The position numbers and the translations under genes were made by a program. From Terriglobia bacterium (lineage in GTDB: Bacteria > Acidobacteriota > Terriglobia > JAIQFV01), in the NCBI GenBank assembly GCA_028716525.1, contig JAQUPQ010000003.1, positions 1-64,000 of the forward strand: a stretch of DNA of 64,000 bases, given 5' to 3'. The notes below the pieces were generated by a model that did no database searches, was not told the origin of the DNA, and saw only the letters and a list, made by a program, of their open reading frames with translations. Shown piece after piece: positions 17,611 to 54,361 of the stretch (position 1 is its first letter; every line of letters begins with the position of its first letter).

Positions 17611-17677
17611 TGGCACCGCATCGGCGCTTCCGGTCCGCACTTCAACGACAATATTTCAGTTAAGAATTCGCGCCGAT

Positions 17678-17842
17678 AAATTCCAAATTCCAAGCACCAA
17701 AGTCCAAATAAGTTCCAGAATCCAAGTTCCAATAAGCTGAGCCGAAATTTGAGTAAAACCGCTTGGCAAAAATAGGTCCTGTTTGGATTTTGGAATTTGG
17801 AATTTATTTGGAATTTGGCGTTTGGGATTTGGAATTTATTAA
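17678..17842. repeat. Inverted AATTCCA heptad arrays downstream of ftsK
   Basis: Left half 17678-17733: units AAATTCC, AAATTCC, AAGCACC, AAAGTCC, an 11-nt unit AAATAAGTTCC, then AGAATCC, AAGTTCC. Right half 17781-17842 in the opposite orientation: GGATTTT, GGAATTT, an 11-nt unit GGAATTTATTT, GGAATTT, GGCGTTT, GGGATTT, GGAATTT. The 11-nt departure from the 7-nt period occurs in both halves. Otherwise the 346 nt between ftsK and the next gene hold only a promoter near 17930. Confidence 0.85.
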
Positions 17843-29908: not shown

Positions 29909-31238
29909 CGACGATCCCACCACGCTGCAGCTGCTGCACGAATCCCTGGCCGGCGAGGGACATGCGGTCACCACCTCGACCAGCGGCGAGGAAGCCTTAA
30001 AACTCGGGCACGAGCAGGCGTTCGACGTCGTCATCAGCGACATCAAGATGGGTCTGGGAGTGAGTGGACTGGACGTGTTGAAGAGTTTTCGACAGATCAA
30101 TCCCCAGGCCGACGTGATTCTTATGACCGCGTTCGGCTCGATGGAAACCGCCATCGAAGCGGTCAAGGCCGGGGCCTACGACTACATTTCCAAACCTTTT
30201 CGCTTGGAAGAAATCCTCCTGATGCTGGAACGCCTGGTGGAGCGGCAACGGCTGCAAAGTGAAAACATAAACCTGCGGCATCAACTGGAAGAACGCTTTT
30301 CACTCTCTTCCATCGTGGGACGTTCTCCGCAGATGGTCGAGGTCTTCAAGAAAATCGGCTATGTCGCCGATAGCCGCTCGACCGTACTGATTACCGGGGA
30401 AAGCGGAACCGGCAAGGAACTGGTCGCCAAGGCGATCCATTACAACAGCGGTCGGGCTTCCAAAAAATTCCTCGCCATCAACTGCGGCGCGTTAACGGAG
30501 TCATTGCTGGAATCGGAGTTGTTCGGACACGTCCGCGGCGCCTTTACCGGCGCCATGACAAACAAGAAAGGGATCTTTGAAGCGGCGGAAGGCGGGACGG
30601 TCTTCCTGGATGAAGTATCGGAGATGTCTACGGCGCTGCAGGTGAAATTGCTCCGGGTGCTGGACGAACAGGAAGTTCGTCCGGTGGGCGGATCCAACTC
30701 GATTCATTTCGATGTCCGCATTATTGCCGCCAGCAACAAGGACCTCCAGGAGACCGTGGAACAAGGAAAATTCCGGCACGATCTCTTGTACCGGCTGAAC
30801 GTCATCAACATTCACTTGCCGCCGCTCCGCGAACGCCGCGACGATATTCCCCTGTTGATCGGACACTTCCTGAAAAAATTCAGTCAACCGTCTTCCTCTC
30901 CTTTGACTCTGGCCGACGATGCCCTCGATGTCTTGACCCATTATTCCTGGCCCGGCAATGTCCGAGAATTGGAAAATACCATCGAATCCTCTGTGGCCTT
31001 GACTCGCACCGGTGTGATTACCGCCAAGGAATTGCCCGCCCGCCTCAGAGAACAGCCTTCCACGGCCCCCACCGAAAACATCTTCTCCGATATGCCTTCA
31101 CTGGATGAGCTTGAACGCCGCTATCTGCTGCGCGCCTTGGAGGCTGCCGGAAACAACAAATCCCGTGCCGCTGAAATTCTGGGCGTCAATCGAAAAACCT
31201 TGTACCGCATGGCGGAACGGTATGGAATTAAGATCTGA
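29877..31238 (+). CDS. Sigma-54-dependent response regulator, NtrC family
   Basis: 453 residues from ATG 29877; the frame continues upstream antisense-free inside the kinase but the receiver domain starts here (NILVVDDDPTT). D55 is the phosphoacceptor and K106 the conserved lysine. AAA+ domain: Walker A GESGTGKE (174-181), the sigma-54 contact loop GAFTGA (221-226), Walker B TVFLDEVSEM. Fis-type helix-turn-helix at the C terminus (NNKSRAAEILGVNRKTLYR). The intact GAFTGA means it should activate sigma-54 promoters. Its TGA stop merges into a heptad array. Confidence 0.93.
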   Translation: MPTPLNILVVDDDPTTLQLLHESLAGEGHAVTTSTSGEEALKLGHEQAFDVVISDIKMGLGVSGLDVLKSFRQINPQADVILMTAFGSMETAIEAVKAGAYDYISKPFRLEEILLMLERLVERQRLQSENINLRHQLEERFSLSSIVGRSPQMVEVFKKIGYVADSRSTVLITGESGTGKELVAKAIHYNSGRASKKFLAINCGALTESLLESELFGHVRGAFTGAMTNKKGIFEAAEGGTVFLDEVSEMSTALQVKLLRVLDEQEVRPVGGSNSIHFDVRIIAASNKDLQETVEQGKFRHDLLYRLNVINIHLPPLRERRDDIPLLIGHFLKKFSQPSSSPLTLADDALDVLTHYSWPGNVRELENTIESSVALTRTGVITAKELPARLREQPSTAPTENIFSDMPSLDELERRYLLRALEAAGNNKSRAAEILGVNRKTLYRMAERYGIKI

Positions 31239-31288
31239 GTGACGAGTGGCGAGGAGACAGTGGTTAGTGACGAGTGATTAGTGGCGAG
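31238..31288. repeat. Heptad array at the ntrC-type stop codon (left half)
   Basis: Seven units on a strict 7-bp register: AGTGACG, AGTGGCG, AGGAGAC, AGTGGTT, AGTGACG, AGTGATT, AGTGGCG. The first base is the last base of the regulator's TGA stop. The first four units (28 bp) recur as a perfect inverted repeat at 31749-31776. Confidence 0.9.
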
Positions 31289-31322
31289 AAAGGAATGCTG
31301 CGGCTAGTTGACTCTTAGCGTG

Positions 31323-31703
31323 TTATGCAGCGCGCACATTGAGTTTCCGACGCAACCCATTCAGCATTTTGCGCACTTCTTCCAAAATTGCAGTTGCTAA
31401 TACTGCTTGTTGAGGTGAACAAAGACTGAGGTCCTGGGCGAGCATTAATTGGGTATCAAGTTCTGCAGCCGAACCCTGAGCATGGGAAATGAATTGAATG
31501 AATTCTTTCGTTGTGTGTCGTGCCTGCCCCTCTGCGATGTTCGAAGGGACAGAAACCGCAGCACGACGCAACTGCGAAACCAGGCCAAATCTTTCATCTT
31601 GTGGAAACCCCCGCGTCAACTCGTAAATCTCTTTCACCAACAGCATGGCCTTTTGCCAGACCAGTAGATCCCGATAACTCTTCGGCCCGTCGGCATTCTC
31701 CAT
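31323..31703 (-). CDS. Four-helix-bundle protein, S23 / 23S-rRNA intervening-sequence family
   Basis: 126 residues. SYRDLLVWQKAMLLVKEIY, then RFGLVSQLRRAAVSVPSNIAEG and FIQFISHAQGSAAELDTQL are the signature of the four-helix-bundle family (TIGR02436), first seen in open frames inside 23S rRNA intervening sequences of spirochaetes; structurally related to the Avd accessory protein of diversity-generating retroelements. The start at 31703 has AGAGGAG 5 nt upstream. Here it is not in an rRNA gene but alone in the loop of a heptad inverted repeat. Function unknown; RNA or nucleic-acid binding is suspected for the family. Confidence 0.88.
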   Translation of the reverse strand: MENADGPKSYRDLLVWQKAMLLVKEIYELTRGFPQDERFGLVSQLRRAAVSVPSNIAEGQARHTTKEFIQFISHAQGSAAELDTQLMLAQDLSLCSPQQAVLATAILEEVRKMLNGLRRKLNVRAA

Positions 31704-31727
31704 AGAATCTCCTCTGGGGGGTGTTCT

Positions 31728-31853
31728 GGTCACTTTTCACTTATCAATAACCACTGTCTCCTCGCCACTCGTCACTAACCACTGTCTCCTCGGCACTGAT
31801 TTCTCGTCACCATCCACTCATCACTAACCACTAATCACTTCTCACTAACCACT
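31728..31853. repeat. Heptad array at the purH 3' end (right half)
   Basis: Eighteen consecutive 7-bp units with no slip in register, mostly of the form NNNCACT (AACCACT five times, CGTCACT, CGCCACT, CATCACT) and with GTCTCCT twice. Ends 5 nt from the purH stop codon. Contains the complement of the 28-bp block at 31238-31265. Confidence 0.9.
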
Positions 31854-45753: not shown

Positions 45754-46671
45754 TTAAAACCCGAGCTTTTGAAACCCGTCTGCCGGAATCGAAAGGGTAG
45801 AAGCCAAATCGGGATGAATCATGACGGCCATCATTTCCAAACTGTCCACGATGCGCGGGCCGGGGCGGCTGAAGTATTGATTCCCATCGGCCACAAAGAT
45901 CCGTCCCTGGCGTACGGCGGGAAGCCGATTCCATGCCTCGATGTTTTTCAACAGGGGCGTCTCGCGCAACGTCCGTTCGATCGAGAAACCGCAACAACTG
46001 ACCACCACGATTTCGGGCGCAAACGATTCAATCTCTTCCCAGGTCAGGCGACGAGAGGGTTTCTTGAATTGGGCCAGGCGATCCACCCCGCCGGCGATTT
46101 CCACCAGTTCACCGTTCCAGTGTCCCCCGCAAAACGGCGGGTCGATCCACTCCATCAATAAGGTCCGGGGGTGATTGTTAAACCGTGCAACGGCCTCGCG
46201 CACCCGGTCGATGCGGCCCTTCAGATCTTGAACCAGCTTCTCGGCGCGCTCCTGGCGTCCCGTCAATTGCCCCACCGTCAGAATGTTTTCGAGAATATCG
46301 TTCAAGCAGGTCGGCTCCAGATTGACTACCGTGGGAGACGACCGCAATCCTTTGACGGCATCGCGGACATACTCGTAGGAGACCGCACACACGTCACACA
46401 ACTGCTGGGTCAGGATCACATCGGGCTGAACTTTTTGCAGAAGATCAAAATCCAGATCGTAAATGCTGCCGCTCTCATGCAGTGTGCTGGATACGAGCGT
46501 GTCGATTTCGTGGCTGGATAGGTTCGAGTCTACTCGCGCCCGGGTCATCTTGGGTTTATTCATTGCCTCCGGAGGAAAATCACACTCGTGCGATACGGCC
46601 ACCAACTCGTCACCGAGCCCGAGGGCGTAAACGATTTCCGTGCTGCTGGGAAGCAGCGAAGCGATTTTCAT
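45754..46671 (-). CDS. BtuF-like (cobalamin-binding) ABC substrate-binding protein without signal peptide
   Basis: 305 residues. MKIASLLPSSTEIVYALGLGD at the very N terminus is the start of a mature BtuF/FepB-type fold; DVILTQQLCDVCAVSY and SRPGPRIVDSLEMMA follow the family. There is no signal peptide or lipobox, so as read it is cytoplasmic, unlike BtuF at 52609. No upstream in-frame start would add one. Downstream of the BtuB-like receptor in the cobalamin locus, so a B12-related intracellular role is likely but unproved. Confidence 0.8.
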   Translation of the reverse strand: MKIASLLPSSTEIVYALGLGDELVAVSHECDFPPEAMNKPKMTRARVDSNLSSHEIDTLVSSTLHESGSIYDLDFDLLQKVQPDVILTQQLCDVCAVSYEYVRDAVKGLRSSPTVVNLEPTCLNDILENILTVGQLTGRQERAEKLVQDLKGRIDRVREAVARFNNHPRTLLMEWIDPPFCGGHWNGELVEIAGGVDRLAQFKKPSRRLTWEEIESFAPEIVVVSCCGFSIERTLRETPLLKNIEAWNRLPAVRQGRIFVADGNQYFSRPGPRIVDSLEMMAVMIHPDLASTLSIPADGFQKLGF

Positions 46672-47028: not shown

Positions 47029-49347
47029 CTATTTCAAGCTCCAACCCTTTTCTCCGCCCAATTGGATGCGAATGCCGGCCAGAAAGTTGAGTCGGTAAGC
47101 CGGGAAGCCCAACACTTCCTCATAACGCCGATTCAGGAAATTGTTAACTCGCGCGTACCCCGTCACTGCGTTCGTGAATTGATACGAACCGCCCACGTTG
47201 GCGTCGACATATCCGGTGCCATGAAAAAGGCAGGGCAATCCCAAGTCGCAGGCAAATGTTCCCAAGTTGGGCTCGACCTCCAGTGTCGGGCCGCGGAAAT
47301 AAGCATCTGCGGTCAGGGTCAAACGCTTCCGGGTCCAAGCCGCTTGCAGCGCGCCCGAGTGAGCCGGGCGGCGCAGCAGCGGGTCGCCGACCTTGAAGAT
47401 CGACTGAACGCGCCCCGGCGCCCCTGTCAACGAAAGAATTTCCGCGTGCAGGAAGGTGTACTGTCCGCTGAATCGCAGGCTTCGATTCGGTTGGACCGAC
47501 ACCACGCACTCCAGCCCCTGCGCCCGGGCGTTCCCCAAATTGTCGGAAGAGAAGGTGGACAGATTTCGAAGATCGCCGGTCAGCGTCACAATTTGATCTT
47601 TAAAATCATTGAAGAAGTAGGTCACATCCGCAACCACGCGGGTGTTCCACCAGGCCGTTTCCACACCGCCATCGAAACTCAAGGACCGCTCGGGCTTCAA
47701 CCGGGGATTGGAGGTAAACGCCAGCTCAAACCCATTGGGTTCTCGAATACCGGTGCCGAACGAGCCGTGAAGCTTGGCGTGACTAAAACCACTGCCGGTC
47801 GCCGGGGAGCGCAAAAAATAGGCCGCTGAAACTTTTGGATTTACTGAAACGATCCCGGAAGGCGAAATCGCCTGATCATGAGAAAAGGGTACGGCCGGAA
47901 TGCCATCCGTTCGAAAATTTTCAATACGCAGCCCCGCGGTAATAAACAACCGCTGCTGCCAATTCCACCGGTTCTCGGCGAAATATCCGAAATCATTGCG
48001 CCTCAGTGCAAAGATGGCTCCCGACGGTTCCGCCACAAAGCTGTTGAAAAATCGCTCGTGTTGGTATTCAAACCCGAACGCCAGCACATCATGGGGTGAT
48101 ATCAAGACGTTGGTTTCGCTTCGAAGTCCGGCCCGAAGATTGTCGGTGAACGAATCGCCGAAGATCGGACTGATAAAACGAAAGTTGTTTGAAACGACGC
48201 TGGATTCCAGGCGTTCCCGAATTTTCGGGGAAAACTCATGCTCCAAATAACCGCCGGTGGCGTAATTGTTATTTTTGTCCCGGGAAAACAGATCCAATCC
48301 AAAAAAAGTCTGATCGGGGTCGCTCCCGTAAGCGCCCGGCACCCCGGAATCGTTGGCATTGGCGTTGAAATTCAATCCCAGGCGGGTTCGCTCGGAAATT
48401 TCCCGCGACAGATGCGCGAAGAGGTTCTGGTTGCGGTAGTTGTCGTTGAAATTGGCGCCTTCGCTCTGGAGCCGGGAAAGATTCAAATCCCAATCAAAGC
48501 CGCGGTTCAAACCGTTGGCGCCGAAGGCGAACCGCCGCATTTCAAAGCTTCCTCCTTCACTTTGAAACGTCACGGCCGGAGCCCCCTCGCCGTGCGGGGT
48601 CACGATGTTGATGGTGGCGCCGATGGCTTCCGATCCGTACAAGGCACTTTGCGGCCCACGCACGACTTCAATGGATTGGACATCGTCTGCGGTCAAGTGA
48701 GCAAAATCGAATCCCAGACCGCCACCAAAATCGTTGAGTTTGATCCCATCCAGCAAAACCAAATCGTAATTGGAGTTTCCACCGCGCGCAAACATGGAAG
48801 TGACTCCACCCCGCCGCCCGGCATCACTGACCGCCAGCCCGGGAATCTGCCTCACGATATCGGACACCAATTGCGCGGCTTGTTGATCCAACTCCTCCTT
48901 CGAAATCACCGTCATGGAACTCCCCACTTGCGTGATCGGTTGATCTGACAAGGAGGCCGACACCACAACGGAATCATTTCGGCCGCTGAGCCGAAGCTTG
49001 ATCTCCAGGGTTTTGGCTTCACCCGGGCGAACGGGATCCACCAGAATGGTCCCTGAGGTAAATCCCGGTTTGTTCACGACCAATTGATAGGACCGCCGGG
49101 GAGAAATAGCACAGCGAAAGTAACCTTGAGAGTTGGTGGTGGTGGTGACCCGAGTTCCCAATTGATCGATGCAATCCACGGCCGCACCGGGAACCACGGC
49201 ACCCGTCAAATCCTTGACTGTCCCGTCAATGGCGCTTCCCGGAGCCGCGCTGGTTTTTACGGTGAGAGAACAAACCCCCAGCAAGATCCCCAAACCCAGA
49301 ACTACCTTGAGACCGAGTCGACGGTGTCGTACGCATGTACTGTTCAT
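47029..49347 (-). CDS. btuB: TonB-dependent outer-membrane receptor, BtuB-like
   Basis: 772 residues, AAAGGAG 5 nt before the ATG. Signal peptide about 1-34; a carboxypeptidase-regulatory-like domain (about 38-125, GTVKDLTGAVVPGAAV); TonB box region and plug (about 140-255, MTVISKEELDQQAAQ, VRGPQSALYGSEAIG, ATINIVTPHG); 22-strand barrel ending in an aromatic-basic tail. Vitamin B12 is the likely substrate because a cobalamin riboswitch lies directly upstream and btuFCD beyond it; the sequence alone does not fix the ligand. Confidence 0.85.
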   Translation of the reverse strand: MNSTCVRHRRLGLKVVLGLGILLGVCSLTVKTSAAPGSAIDGTVKDLTGAVVPGAAVDCIDQLGTRVTTTTNSQGYFRCAISPRRSYQLVVNKPGFTSGTILVDPVRPGEAKTLEIKLRLSGRNDSVVVSASLSDQPITQVGSSMTVISKEELDQQAAQLVSDIVRQIPGLAVSDAGRRGGVTSMFARGGNSNYDLVLLDGIKLNDFGGGLGFDFAHLTADDVQSIEVVRGPQSALYGSEAIGATINIVTPHGEGAPAVTFQSEGGSFEMRRFAFGANGLNRGFDWDLNLSRLQSEGANFNDNYRNQNLFAHLSREISERTRLGLNFNANANDSGVPGAYGSDPDQTFFGLDLFSRDKNNNYATGGYLEHEFSPKIRERLESSVVSNNFRFISPIFGDSFTDNLRAGLRSETNVLISPHDVLAFGFEYQHERFFNSFVAEPSGAIFALRRNDFGYFAENRWNWQQRLFITAGLRIENFRTDGIPAVPFSHDQAISPSGIVSVNPKVSAAYFLRSPATGSGFSHAKLHGSFGTGIREPNGFELAFTSNPRLKPERSLSFDGGVETAWWNTRVVADVTYFFNDFKDQIVTLTGDLRNLSTFSSDNLGNARAQGLECVVSVQPNRSLRFSGQYTFLHAEILSLTGAPGRVQSIFKVGDPLLRRPAHSGALQAAWTRKRLTLTADAYFRGPTLEVEPNLGTFACDLGLPCLFHGTGYVDANVGGSYQFTNAVTGYARVNNFLNRRYEEVLGFPAYRLNFLAGIRIQLGGEKGWSLK

Positions 49348-49372: not shown

Positions 49373-49399
49373 CCGTTCGAATGAACGGTGTTTTAGTTT

Positions 49400-49558
49400 T
49401 GTCACCGGCCCGATCTCCTGACTTGAGGGCGCCGCAGTTGTTTTCGCCTTCCCGCCGGAAAACTTTGGAGCCGGCAGTGACGAAAACCGGAATTGAACCC
49501 TCATACAGTTGCGGGGCAGTCGCCGCTTTTCACGGCGTTCCCGAACCGATGACGTGAT
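49400..49558 (-). promoter_or_regulatory. Cobalamin riboswitch upstream of btuB
   Basis: The minus strand shows GGGAACGCCGTGAAAAGCGG, then GACTGCCCCGCAACTGT and, at the 3' end, the B12 box AAGTCAGGAGATCGGGCC (about 49404-49425). These are the conserved parts of the cobalamin aptamer. The 3' end is about 50 nt from the start codon. Confidence 0.93.
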
Positions 49559-49560
49559 TT

Positions 49561-49801
49561 CAGACATCAGACATCAGACCCAAGACCAAAGACCCAAGAC
49601 CCGAAACTTAAAACTGGAACCATAGAAGAGCAGCTTTCCGATAAAACTTTTGGATGATTCGATTGATGAGATTTGAGATGGCACTTATTTCCTTCAGTCA
49701 AGAATCAAGAATTGTCCTCAAGGATCGACTCTTAATATCTGCTCTTAGTCTTGGGTCCTGGGTCTTGTGTCTTGGGTCTCTCTTCCCGGGTCTTGGTTCT
49801 C
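49561..49801. repeat. Inverted AGACCCA heptad arrays between btuB and the DUF71 gene
   Basis: Left half 49561-49616: CAGACAT, CAGACAT, CAGACCC, AAGACCA, AAGACCC, AAGACCC, GAAACTT, AAAACTG. Right half 49746-49801 in the opposite orientation: TAGTCTT, GGGTCCT, GGGTCTT, GTGTCTT, GGGTCTC, TCTTCCC, GGGTCTT, GGTTCTC. Strict 7-bp register. The right half ends 4 nt from the stop codon of the DUF71 gene, and the left half abuts the btuB riboswitch. Confidence 0.88.
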
Positions 49802-50525: not shown

Positions 50526-51398
50526 CTAATCAACGCTCTCGTGATGCGAACTCGCCGATCGATCGCTTTTTCTCAAAGGAGTAATTCGACACGCGCCGGT
50601 CACAGGATTTTGATCGACCAATAATTCTGAATCAAACACCTGGTGCAACCGCTCTTCTGTCATGACCTCGGCGGGTGAACCGAACGCCAGGGAATTGCCG
50701 TTCTTCAGCAACAGAACCTTGTGAGCAAACTCGGAGGCCAAATTCAGCTCGTGCGTTACCATGACGACCAAAAGGCCTTGTTCTCGAGTCAGGCGGTCCA
50801 CCAGCTCCAACAACTCAATTTGAAACGCCACATCGAGGTTGATCGTGGGTTCATCCAACAACAGCAAACGTGGTTGTTGAGCCAGCGCGCGCGCCAGGAT
50901 GACCCGTTGGCGCTCACCGCCTGAGAGTTCGTTCATCCAGCGACGCTCGAAAGGCGCGGCGCGAGTCATCTGCAGCGCCTGATGAACGATTTCGAGGTCT
51001 TCCGCACCGGCCAATTGCAACCCCTCCACAAAGGGATGCCGCGCCATGAGGCAATATTCCAAGACCGTCATCGGGAAATGCAGGGCGCTTTCCTGTGCCA
51101 CGACGGCAACCTGTCGAGCCCTTTGACGGCCTTTCATGGAGTGAATAGAAACGCCGTCCAGGTGCACGACGCCGGCATCCGGTTTCGAATAACCGCTGAT
51201 AATTTTCAGGAGAGTTGATTTTCCGGAACCGTTGGGTCCCAAAATCCCGGTCAAGGTGCCTGTAGTCCCTTCAAAGGAAACCGGAGACAGCCGAAAATTT
51301 CCCTGTCGCAACGCAACCTCTCGAACCTCCAACCGAAGATCGCCGGGTGGATTCGAGGGTGGGGTCATTCCAACGGGATTTTTAGTTGCCGAATTCAT
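50526..51398 (-). CDS. btuD: ABC transporter ATPase for cobalamin/iron-complex uptake
   Basis: 290 residues from ATG 51398, which overlaps the btuC stop as ATGA. Walker A LGPNGSGKSTLL, Q-loop VVAQES, signature LSGGERQRV, Walker B LLLLDEPTINLD and H-loop VTHEL. The frame continues upstream inside btuC, but that part is a shadow. Powers the BtuFC importer. Whether the substrate is cobalamin rather than an iron chelate rests on the riboswitch. Confidence 0.9.
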   Translation of the reverse strand: MNSATKNPVGMTPPSNPPGDLRLEVREVALRQGNFRLSPVSFEGTTGTLTGILGPNGSGKSTLLKIISGYSKPDAGVVHLDGVSIHSMKGRQRARQVAVVAQESALHFPMTVLEYCLMARHPFVEGLQLAGAEDLEIVHQALQMTRAAPFERRWMNELSGGERQRVILARALAQQPRLLLLDEPTINLDVAFQIELLELVDRLTREQGLLVVMVTHELNLASEFAHKVLLLKNGNSLAFGSPAEVMTEERLHQVFDSELLVDQNPVTGACRITPLRKSDRSASSHHESVD

Positions 51399-52411
51399 TG
51401 CTCCACCCGGTCTCTTCGCAATAAATAAATGAATACCGGAGCACCGGCGAGTGCCGTAATGGCCCCCACAGGCAATTCGATGGGAGCGGCCACACTTCGG
51501 GCGATCAAGTCTGCGGTCACGGTCAGCATAGCGCCCACCAAGGCGCTCGCCGGAATCAACAAACGGTAATCGTTTCCGAAAAGAAGCCGCACGAGGTGCG
51601 GCACAATCAATCCCACAAAACCGATGGATCCGCTGACGGAAACAGCCAACCCCGTCAGCAGCGCCGATAACACAAACACACCTCGCCGCACCCATTCCAC
51701 GTTCACTCCCAGATGCGTGGCTTCACGATCGCCGATCAGCATGACATTGAGGCTGCCCGCCAGACGGTAAATCAAAAACACGCTCGCCAATGCTGCGATC
51801 GCGACCCACTTCAAATAGGGAACATGCACGCCGGAAAAATCGCCCATTAACCAGAATGTCGCTTCCCGTAATTGATGACCGCTCATGAAGGGTTCGAGAA
51901 AGATGATAATCGAAGAGAAAAACGAAGCCGCGATGATGCCGGCCAGAATCAAGGTGTGGGGAGAGGTCTTTCCGCTGCGGCTCCCCAGCGAATACACCAG
52001 AAAAATGGTGATCAAACCTCCGATGAAAGCAGCGATGGGAAGAGGTAGAGGAATGAATCTCGAAAAGGCAATCGACAAGATGGCCGCAAGCGCGGCGCCG
52101 CTCGAGACTCCCAGCACATGCGGATCGGCCAAAGGATTTCGCAACAAGGCTTGGAAGCCCGCACCTGCGACCGCCAGCGACATTCCCACCAGCATGGCCA
52201 GGTAAATCCGCGGCAATCGCAATCCAAAAAGAATGACCGCGACGTCTGAAGGCAGGGGTTGATGAGGAAAGAACCTTCCCAAGACCAGGCTGACGACCTG
52301 CATGAAGGGAATGCGAGTGCTGCCGATGGACAAGGCCAAAGCGCCGGTCACCATCAGCAACACGACCAGTAACAGGAGCGCCGAAGCTATTTTTTTCTTA
52401 GTAAGCACCAT
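51395..52411 (-). CDS. btuC: FecCD-family ABC permease, cobalamin type
   Basis: 338 residues, about ten membrane segments. RLPRIYLAMLVGMSLAVAGAGFQ, NPLADPHVLGVSSGAALAA and GFVGLIVPHLVRLLFGNDYR are hallmarks of the BtuC/FecCD family. Forms the inner-membrane channel of the B12 importer. Follows btuF after an intergenic repeat of about 200 nt and overlaps btuD. Confidence 0.92.
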   Translation of the reverse strand: MVLTKKKIASALLLLVVLLMVTGALALSIGSTRIPFMQVVSLVLGRFFPHQPLPSDVAVILFGLRLPRIYLAMLVGMSLAVAGAGFQALLRNPLADPHVLGVSSGAALAAILSIAFSRFIPLPLPIAAFIGGLITIFLVYSLGSRSGKTSPHTLILAGIIAASFFSSIIIFLEPFMSGHQLREATFWLMGDFSGVHVPYLKWVAIAALASVFLIYRLAGSLNVMLIGDREATHLGVNVEWVRRGVFVLSALLTGLAVSVSGSIGFVGLIVPHLVRLLFGNDYRLLIPASALVGAMLTVTADLIARSVAAPIELPVGAITALAGAPVFIYLLRRDRVEQ

Positions 52412-52608: not shown

Positions 52609-53583
52609 TCATTTCCCTTCCGGATGCAAAATCTTCGAAATCTCCTCCAAGGCATCAAACAATCGCGGGCTGGGGTGATTGGCGTCATCCTGGACCTCAT
52701 ATACCTTTTGTGTGCGCACCGCCGTCGTTGAGTCCCAACCCGCCCACTGTTTCAATTGCTTCGATACCGGCAGTCCTTCATTGCTGCGAGGTATCAAAAT
52801 GACTTCGGGATCGCGCCGCACGATTTCTTCCAACGACATCTGGGCCCAATCCTGTTTGAGATCGGCGCTGATGGATTGTCCTCCGGCCAAAGTGATCAGG
52901 CTGGTGATAAAAGAATTTTTTCCCGGCACGCTGATGGGGTGGTACCACACCAGATACAGAACCCGCGGCCGGGGATGGCCTGCCACTCGACGGACCACGG
53001 CGTCGCGACGCGCCTCCAGCGATCGTACGACTTCGACCGCTTGCCCGCTCGTGCCCAGGAGCGCGCCCAGATCCTTCAAAGAACTCAAGACATCGTCCAA
53101 GCTGCGGGCGTGAACCCCGTACAACGGAATGTGAAAGCGCGCCAGCTGATCCGCGACCTCAATCTTGTTGATCTCCGGGGTTCCGATCACCAAATCCGGC
53201 CGCAGCGAAACAATCATCTCCACATTCGGATTAATGACTCCACCGATACTCGGCTTCCGGCGAACTTGCGGGGGATAATCACAGTAGTCCGTGCGCGCGA
53301 TCACGCGGTCACCGGCTCCCAACGCATAAAGCGTTTCCGTGACACTGGGGGCCAGAGAGACAATGCGGCGCGGGTTGGCAGGAACTTCCACTCTTCTTCC
53401 AGTCTCGTCGATGACCCAGCGGTTGGAAAAAGCGATTCCAATTGTTGCAGGTGTCAGAAGAAGCCAGAAAACAGAGATCAGAAGCCAGAAACGAGTGGCC
53501 CGTGGCCAATGAACAGGCGTCCGATTACACCTCACCTTCGTGTCATCGATTCTATGGACTTCACCAGTTCTGAAGAAATTCAA
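52609..53583 (-). CDS. btuF: Periplasmic cobalamin-binding protein of the BtuFCD importer
   Basis: 324 residues. Hydrophobic segment 31-52 (FWLLISVFWLLLTPATIGI) is a signal peptide or anchor; the mature BtuF fold starts RRIVSLAPSVTETLYALGAG, with ARTDYCDYPPQV and DLVIGTPEI. Binds B12 and hands it to BtuC. The first 20-odd residues look unlike protein and may not be translated; start uncertain. Bases coding about residues 26-43 form a 7-bp repeat. Preceded by a cobalamin riboswitch and terminator. Confidence 0.87.
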   Translation of the reverse strand: MNFFRTGEVHRIDDTKVRCNRTPVHWPRATRFWLLISVFWLLLTPATIGIAFSNRWVIDETGRRVEVPANPRRIVSLAPSVTETLYALGAGDRVIARTDYCDYPPQVRRKPSIGGVINPNVEMIVSLRPDLVIGTPEINKIEVADQLARFHIPLYGVHARSLDDVLSSLKDLGALLGTSGQAVEVVRSLEARRDAVVRRVAGHPRPRVLYLVWYHPISVPGKNSFITSLITLAGGQSISADLKQDWAQMSLEEIVRRDPEVILIPRSNEGLPVSKQLKQWAGWDSTTAVRTQKVYEVQDDANHPSPRLFDALEEISKILHPEGK

Positions 53584-53628
53584 TTAAGAATTCACCTCTT
53601 GCTTGCAGCCAGCGCAAATTCGTTCGCA

Positions 53629-53670: not shown

Positions 53671-53765
53671 CAAAAACTTGTCCACGGGCTCCTTTTTCGC
53701 GAAGAGCGCTACGTTTGACGATTAAGACCCGGACGCCAGACTGCCCACCCAAACCTCTTCGTTTC

Positions 53766-53793
53766 GGGTCTCGGGTCTTTGGTCCTGGATCTT
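53766..53793. repeat. Single AGACCCA-family heptad array inside the btuF leader
   Basis: GGGTCTC, GGGTCTT, TGGTCCT, GGATCTT on a 7-bp register, directly 3' of the aptamer on the minus strand. A lone AAGACCCG at about 53724-53731 could pair with it. Same family as at 49561-49801, next to the other B12 riboswitch. Confidence 0.65.
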
Positions 53794-53799
53794 CTATTG

Positions 53800-53960
53800 A
53801 TTGTCGGCAGATTTCCTGACTGGGTCACTTCGTCCAGCGTTCTCGCCTTCCCAATCCTGGAAAGAATCAGTGGCTTTGAACTTGGGATCGTGACGTCACA
53901 GTGGCGCGACCGTCGCCGAATTTCACGGCGTTCCCTTTTGGCTCCTTCAATTCGGAGACC
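53800..53960 (-). promoter_or_regulatory. Cobalamin riboswitch upstream of btuFCD
   Basis: Minus strand: GGGAACGCCGTGAAATTCGG, then CGCCACTGTGACGTCACG, ATTGGGAAGGCGAGAAC and the B12 box CAGTCAGGAAATCTGCC (53803-53822). The conserved aptamer parts match those of the btuB riboswitch. Confidence 0.92.
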
Positions 53961-54036
53961 GGCAATCGTTGAGAAAGATCAATGAGAAAATTCAAGCTAA
54001 CAGAATCTGCGGGGTGATGTCAAACGGATTAAGAGC

Positions 54037-54361
54037 AGTGGGGAGTGGCAAGTGACTAGTGTTCAGTGATGAGTGATCAGTGAGCAGTGACGAGTGATCA
54101 GTGACAAGTGAACAGTGATCTAACAGGCTGCTGTCAGGCGGGATTCAAGATCTTTGCCTGTGCGGGTTCGATTTTTAGAAATTGATTTTCAGGGCAGCGT
54201 TCTTGCGGCCACCCCATTGGCGTAGCAAGCGCCAACTCATTTTGCGCAAGAAATGGCACAACTCTTCACTGATCACTCGTCACTGCTCACTGATCACTCA
54301 TCACTCGTCACTTGTCACTGAACACTGATCCCTCGCCACTCGTCACTAACCACTGATTACT
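54037..54361. repeat. Inverted AGTGACG heptad arrays after the ADOP permease
   Basis: Left half 54037-54120: twelve units on a strict register, including AGTGGCA, AGTGACT, AGTGATG, AGTGATC, AGTGACG, AGTGACA. Right half 54264-54361: fourteen units (GATCACT, CGTCACT, GCTCACT, CATCACT, TGTCACT, CGCCACT, AACCACT and others). The right half runs into the permease stop codon (54357-54359). The 143 nt between the halves have no recognised gene. Confidence 0.9.

Follow-up and report, generated by a model that had tools for sequence, protein, structure and literature searches.

A fold-back heptad element as the probable source of the export-signal core of a BtuF-like protein in Terriglobia

The N-terminal codons of a btuF-like gene in a Terriglobia genome contain a tandem array of 7-bp units which, with a probability of about 0.77 in our estimation, represents the translated arm of a fold-back heptad element that now forms the core of the protein's export signal. 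The array is real, lies in the reading frame of the gene, is followed by no standard start codon and, in one relative, pairs with an arm in the 5' leader. Among the orthologs examined, such an N-terminal array is restricted to three genomes of a single family of soil Acidobacteria. These are the source genome (G000), from which the 64,000-nucleotide window analysed here is drawn, and the two other genomes of its family (G001 and G002) found among 100 relatives.

The heptad array within the btuF-like gene

The array and the gene that contains it are as follows:

53459..53507, minus strand: heptad array of seven 7-bp units, coding-strand consensus (TTCTGGC)n, occupying btuF codons 26-42
52609..53583, minus strand: btuF-like ORF of 324 aa with a TTG start; the Peripla_BP_2 domain covers residues 74-300

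On the plus strand, positions 53459-53507 read AGAAGCC AGAAAAC AGAGATC AGAAGCC AGAAACG AGTGGCC CGTGGCC. The original prediction of 7-bp units in these codons was right in substance, though the units number seven rather than six and run in phase from 53459 rather than 53456; the 7-residue echo that it described (RFWLLIS, then VFWLLLT) is present in the ORF. The self-identity of the array is 28/42 (67%) at lag 7, 57% at lag 14 and 71% at lag 21, as against 21-38% at the remaining lags. Across the 64-kb window, a lag-7 score of at least 28/42 is attained by just six clusters, and five attain 28/42 at lag 14, with none doing so at lags 4-6 and 8-13. Upon synonymous recoding with the codon usage of the genome, the observed value of 28/44 was reached in 29/20000 trials (null mean 19.7 of 44, sd 2.7), while the same null applied to the G001 and G002 orthologs gave 0/20000 each. 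Further, sixteen equal-length pieces of the mature part of btuF have lag-7 scores of just 7-16. As the synonymous nulls are exceeded, the repeat is a feature of the DNA that is read as protein rather than the by-product of a repetitive peptide; a chance or codon-composition origin was rejected on the basis of the lag scan together with these nulls.

Identity and genomic neighbourhood of the gene

The product matches the Peripla_BP_2 fold (PF01497, E 4.8e-36) and passes the TroA_like subfamily cut-off (78.8 vs 30). It misses the strict NCBIfam BtuF equivalog cut-off (NF002894, 105 bits vs 234 required), and 'BtuF-like' is therefore the safe name. The following features surround it:

53789..53978, minus strand: cobalamin riboswitch RF00174, 99.6 bits
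53634..53671, minus strand: GC-rich hairpin followed by a U-run, conserved in G001 and G002
51395..52411, minus strand: btuC-like FecCD permease, downstream of btuF
50526..51695, minus strand: btuD-like ABC ATPase, given from its longest-ORF start, which is probably too far upstream

Thus, the gene lies in a B12 context, with a cobalamin riboswitch and with FecCD and ABC ATPase neighbours, in the order riboswitch, hairpin-plus-U terminator, btuF, and FecCD and ABC genes. A role of the protein in B12 uptake would rest on this riboswitch and operon, and the hairpin with its U-run is likely to be the expression platform, or terminator, of the riboswitch. Elsewhere in the window, a second, paralogous BtuF-like ORF (45754-46671) begins at the domain and has no signal peptide, and a second cobalamin riboswitch (49390-49598) is found upstream of a TonB-dependent-receptor-like ORF (47029-49347). 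The latter riboswitch is overlapped by a CAAGACC heptad arm (49549-49626) with an inverted partner at 49747-49779.

Predicted translation of the array

Three features bear on the site of initiation:

53581..53583, minus strand: likely TTG start codon, in a TTGAATxTCxTCAGAA context common to G002
53533-53535, minus strand: alternative in-frame GTG, codon 17
53592..53599, minus strand: Shine-Dalgarno-like element AGAGGTGA, 8 nt upstream of the TTG

Between the array and the mature domain there is no ATG, GTG or TTG in G000, G001 or G002, and the next such codon past the GTG at codon 17 of G000 is already inside the conserved domain, with the same situation in both relatives. Since no standard start lies downstream of it, any standard start would place the array within the protein; hence, it is predicted to be translated unless initiation employs a rarer near-cognate codon.

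Comparison of btuF orthologs

The BtuF-like protein of G000 shows 61-62% identity to its orthologs in G001 and G002. In both of these, the N terminus is encoded by (CAACTGG)n, and in G001 a (TTCTGGC)n stretch comes after it. Over the 250 bp that precede the mature motif, the maximal lag-7 score is 28 of 42 in G000, 29 in G001 and 32 in G002, as compared with 13-21/42 in 23 other Terriglobia orthologs; those N termini that were read among the non-family orthologs resemble ordinary signal peptides. The alignment of BtuF from relatives, which had been proposed as the check on the idea, thus recovers heptad-built N termini in both same-family orthologs (29/42 and 32/42) and in none of the 23 others. 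The contrary pattern, i.e., relatives whose conserved signal peptide has the same sequence and non-repetitive codons, was not encountered among the orthologs examined. The claim that a non-coding repeat supplied the export segment is accordingly strengthened by the ortholog pattern and the absent standard start, with export as such being suggested by hydropathy and position. Between G001 and G002, pN and pS are 0.26 and 0.45 for the N terminus and 0.06 and 0.29 for the mature part. With its faster evolution relative to the mature part, the N terminus is under weak sequence constraint; this constraint appears weaker than that on the mature part, yet the pattern would not be that of frame-free drift.

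Properties of the predicted export signal

53428..53490, minus strand: FWLLISVFWLLLTPATIGIAF, predicted to form the hydrophobic core of the export signal; its first 11 residues are encoded by heptad DNA; max KD15 2.14

The hydrophobicity of this core is that of a Sec signal peptide, its maximum KD15 falling within the range of ordinary orthologs (2.03-2.83). It departs from the heptad consensus at six bases and has a hydropathy of 2.45, versus 1.78 for the consensus, with only 1.8% of random six-base mutants of the consensus being as hydrophobic. In this one short sequence, the difference may reflect selection for a more hydrophobic segment. The stretch preceding the core comprises 33 aa if counted from the TTG or 17 aa from the GTG, the n-region of the relatives being 33-56 aa in length, and the 33-residue version carries a net positive charge (+7/-3). 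No AxA cleavage site stands out clearly in G000 (AFS|N); plausible sites are seen in G002 (PAAN) and G001 (TAAT). Taken together, hydropathy and position suggest that the heptad-coded segment is the export segment.

The array as a probable arm of a fold-back element

In 463 kb of the G000 genome, 9/10 heptad arrays are accompanied within 700 bp by an inverted partner that scores better than shuffles, the sole exception among the ten being the btuF array. The corresponding figures are 23/35 arrays in G001 and 19/34 in G002 (440-450 kb each, with the btuF contigs put into the sample by choice), and 26/35 and 30/34 of these arrays, respectively, lie outside ORFs. The leader of G001 btuF contains, after the terminator, a 59-nt arm with 80% complementarity to the intragenic arm, and the two arms pair in the predicted RNA fold (z -4.2). 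In G002, as in G000, the partner of the btuF array scores no more than marginally above shuffles. The closest G000 counterpart is the following:

53759..53787, minus strand: short heptad stretch in opposite orientation, a possible partner-arm remnant; not significant, 501/2000 shuffles being as good

As an inverted partner, the G000 candidate at 53759-53781 (23 nt, 74%) was rejected, being no better than shuffles. Judging from G001, the btuF array is one arm of an inverted fold-back element rather than a free tandem repeat. The simplest reading is that this element entered before the family split, after which the untranslated arm decayed and the translated arm stayed. Three further inverted heptad pairs occur in the window, at 17676-17839, 31238-31776 and 54036-54355; their arms, of 57, 53 and 85 nt, are 78-87% complementary and belong to differing unit types.

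Alternative readings

The DNA repeat might be questioned as a coincidence of amino-acid composition, given that signal peptides rich in L, F, A and W, with their CT-rich codons, could echo by chance. The core is indeed rich in Leu, Phe and Trp, and the synonymous null by itself already averages 19.7 of 44; however, the rarity of the observed scores under the nulls for all three orthologs, the ceiling of 21/42 in the 23 other btuF upstream regions and the extension of the G001 array through hydrophilic sequence largely refute this reading, which we consider scarcely tenable. A different function for the same repeat would be that of a phase-variation switch, in which BtuF would alternate between on and off states through frame shifts as units are gained or lost. 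The unit length is not a multiple of 3, the array lies shortly after the start, and repeats near coding N termini have been linked to phase variation (PMC4692102). Against this, the units are degenerate (67% lag-7 identity) rather than near-perfect and slip-capable as in phase-variable loci, so that slippage should be rare; further, all three orthologs are in frame, and the aligned arrays of G001 and G002 differ in size by seven codons, which equals 21 bp or three units. A switch of this kind is hence highly improbable.

Alternatively, the array might be an untranslated leader, with BtuF starting downstream at a non-standard codon to yield either a leaderless protein or one whose short signal derives from the ATTGGAATC region. 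Such an arrangement would accord with the location of most heptad arrays of the G000 genome outside genes and with the paralogous BtuF-like protein that has no signal peptide. It is nevertheless unlikely in view of the lack of ATG, GTG and TTG from the array to the start-like codon within the conserved domain in all three orthologs, the upstream TTG with its good Shine-Dalgarno-like sequence and its context common to G002, and the maintenance of both hydrophobicity and reading frame in all three. A reading that has the repeat origin in common with the favoured one, the fate of the segment being the sole difference, is that the translated array serves as an uncleaved N-terminal anchor, tethering BtuF to the inner membrane. 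The long n-region and the unclear AxA site in G000 would be compatible with such an anchor, but the net positive charge before the core, which is like that of ordinary signal peptides, the plausible cleavage sites in G002 and G001, and the ordinary signal peptides of the other orthologs make it a minor, if genuine, possibility.

Frame-independent reading of heptads and the proposed origin of the signal

The favoured reading, i.e., a translated arm of a fold-back heptad element as the export-signal core, draws on a general property of 7-bp repeats. As 7 is coprime to 3, the unit runs through three frames per 21 bp, and any heptad array encodes one 7-residue peptide that is cyclically permuted across the three frames. 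Computation shows that (TTCTGGC)n contains no stop in any of the six frames; it reads as the hydrophobic LLASGFW / FWLLASG in every frame of one strand and as the hydrophilic ARSQKPE in every frame of the complement. Hence, a membrane-crossing segment needs no particular insertion frame. About half of all heptads (8264/16384) are stop-free on both strands. The AGTGATC type, which is common in the 64-kb window, carries a stop on each strand, so that its arrays cannot be read as protein in this way.

Under the proposed scenario, an inverted-pair heptad element would have landed, in the family ancestor, downstream of the B12-riboswitch terminator and ahead of the mature btuF domain. Its pyrimidine-rich 3' arm would then have become translated, presumably replacing an older signal peptide, and would now supply the hydrophobic core of the export signal, which may direct Sec export and may be retained by selection. 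Given a stop-free repeat whose unit is coprime to three and whose hydrophobic peptide is the same in any frame, spacer DNA beside a gene could become a signal peptide in few steps.

Heptad-built segments in other genes and genomes

Further heptad-built signal peptides were recovered in L062 (G095), in L151, in L149 (G055), in L061 (G020) and in L112 (G030), the last being that of an NHL-repeat protein. L062, L151 and L149 are homologs within one genus, with L151 being a paralog of L062 and L149 a homolog; in L151 and L061, an inverted arm additionally precedes the hydrophobic one. Hydrophilic heptad-derived inserts occur in frame in QueG of G027 (L110 438-1877), where the insert is absent or different in most relatives, and in RecG of G016 (L072). 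This RecG region differs in length among relatives, so that the heptad occupies a loop that is variable in any case. A comparable hydrophilic insert lies between the RNA-binding and HD domains of the PcnB/CCA nucleotidyltransferase of G001 (L171 14853-16394). These cases come mostly from heptad-directed searches and hence show occurrence rather than frequency.

Some candidates were discarded: the ATG after the N-terminal array of a CcmB ORF (L084 1386-2144) fits the start of the family, and the ORFs preceded by arrays in L046 and L105 each have a plausible later start. In MurG of G008 (L050 3-1172), two heptad types account for the first 42 residues and the start is ambiguous; an ATG follows the array, but it lies beyond the likely first strand. 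The QueG proteins of G027 (L110 438-1877), L142 and L144 have long, variable in-frame inserts with RSQESEVRSQKPE-like heptad readings. Matches to the TTCTGGC 21-mer number 207 in G060, far above every other genome sampled.

A broader proposal, to which we assign even odds, is that the fold-back heptads of Terriglobia are recurrent frame-independent donors, with the pyrimidine-rich strand giving rise to export signals and the complement to hydrophilic linkers. One spacer-type repeat would in this manner repeatedly found both signal peptides and loops. The comparison of family members renders the origin of a signal peptide testable and offers a route to studying how signal peptides and linkers arise.

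Relationship to known systems

The heptameric repeats of Xanthomonas and Nostoc and the heptanucleotides of Calothrix are 7-bp tandem arrays dispersed genome-wide and mostly non-coding, the 7-bp units studied there being of the G-rich quadruplex type (PMC4692102). The Terriglobia arrays are likewise short, genome-wide and mainly non-coding, but unlike them comprise several unrelated heptads, often as inverted pairs with some protein-coding arms. No reports of heptamers in Acidobacteria were found in an open-access collection of papers, nor, to our knowledge, have heptad arrays been described there as donors of signal peptides.

Repeated elements that give in-frame protein segments to unrelated genes are represented by the Rickettsia palindromic elements. 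The same holds for the palindromic amphipathic repeat coding sequence (PMC2996958). Both are defined elements with a sequence of their own. By comparison, the donor here is a simple heptad with a frame-invariant product, the orientation of which flips it between hydrophobic and hydrophilic. Random sequences can also serve as secretion signals, many sufficiently hydrophobic N-terminal segments being functional. In the present case, by contrast, the source of the segment is identified as a repeat with a built-in hydrophobic reading, and a heptad origin of the btuF signal would thereby provide a concrete source for new export signals.
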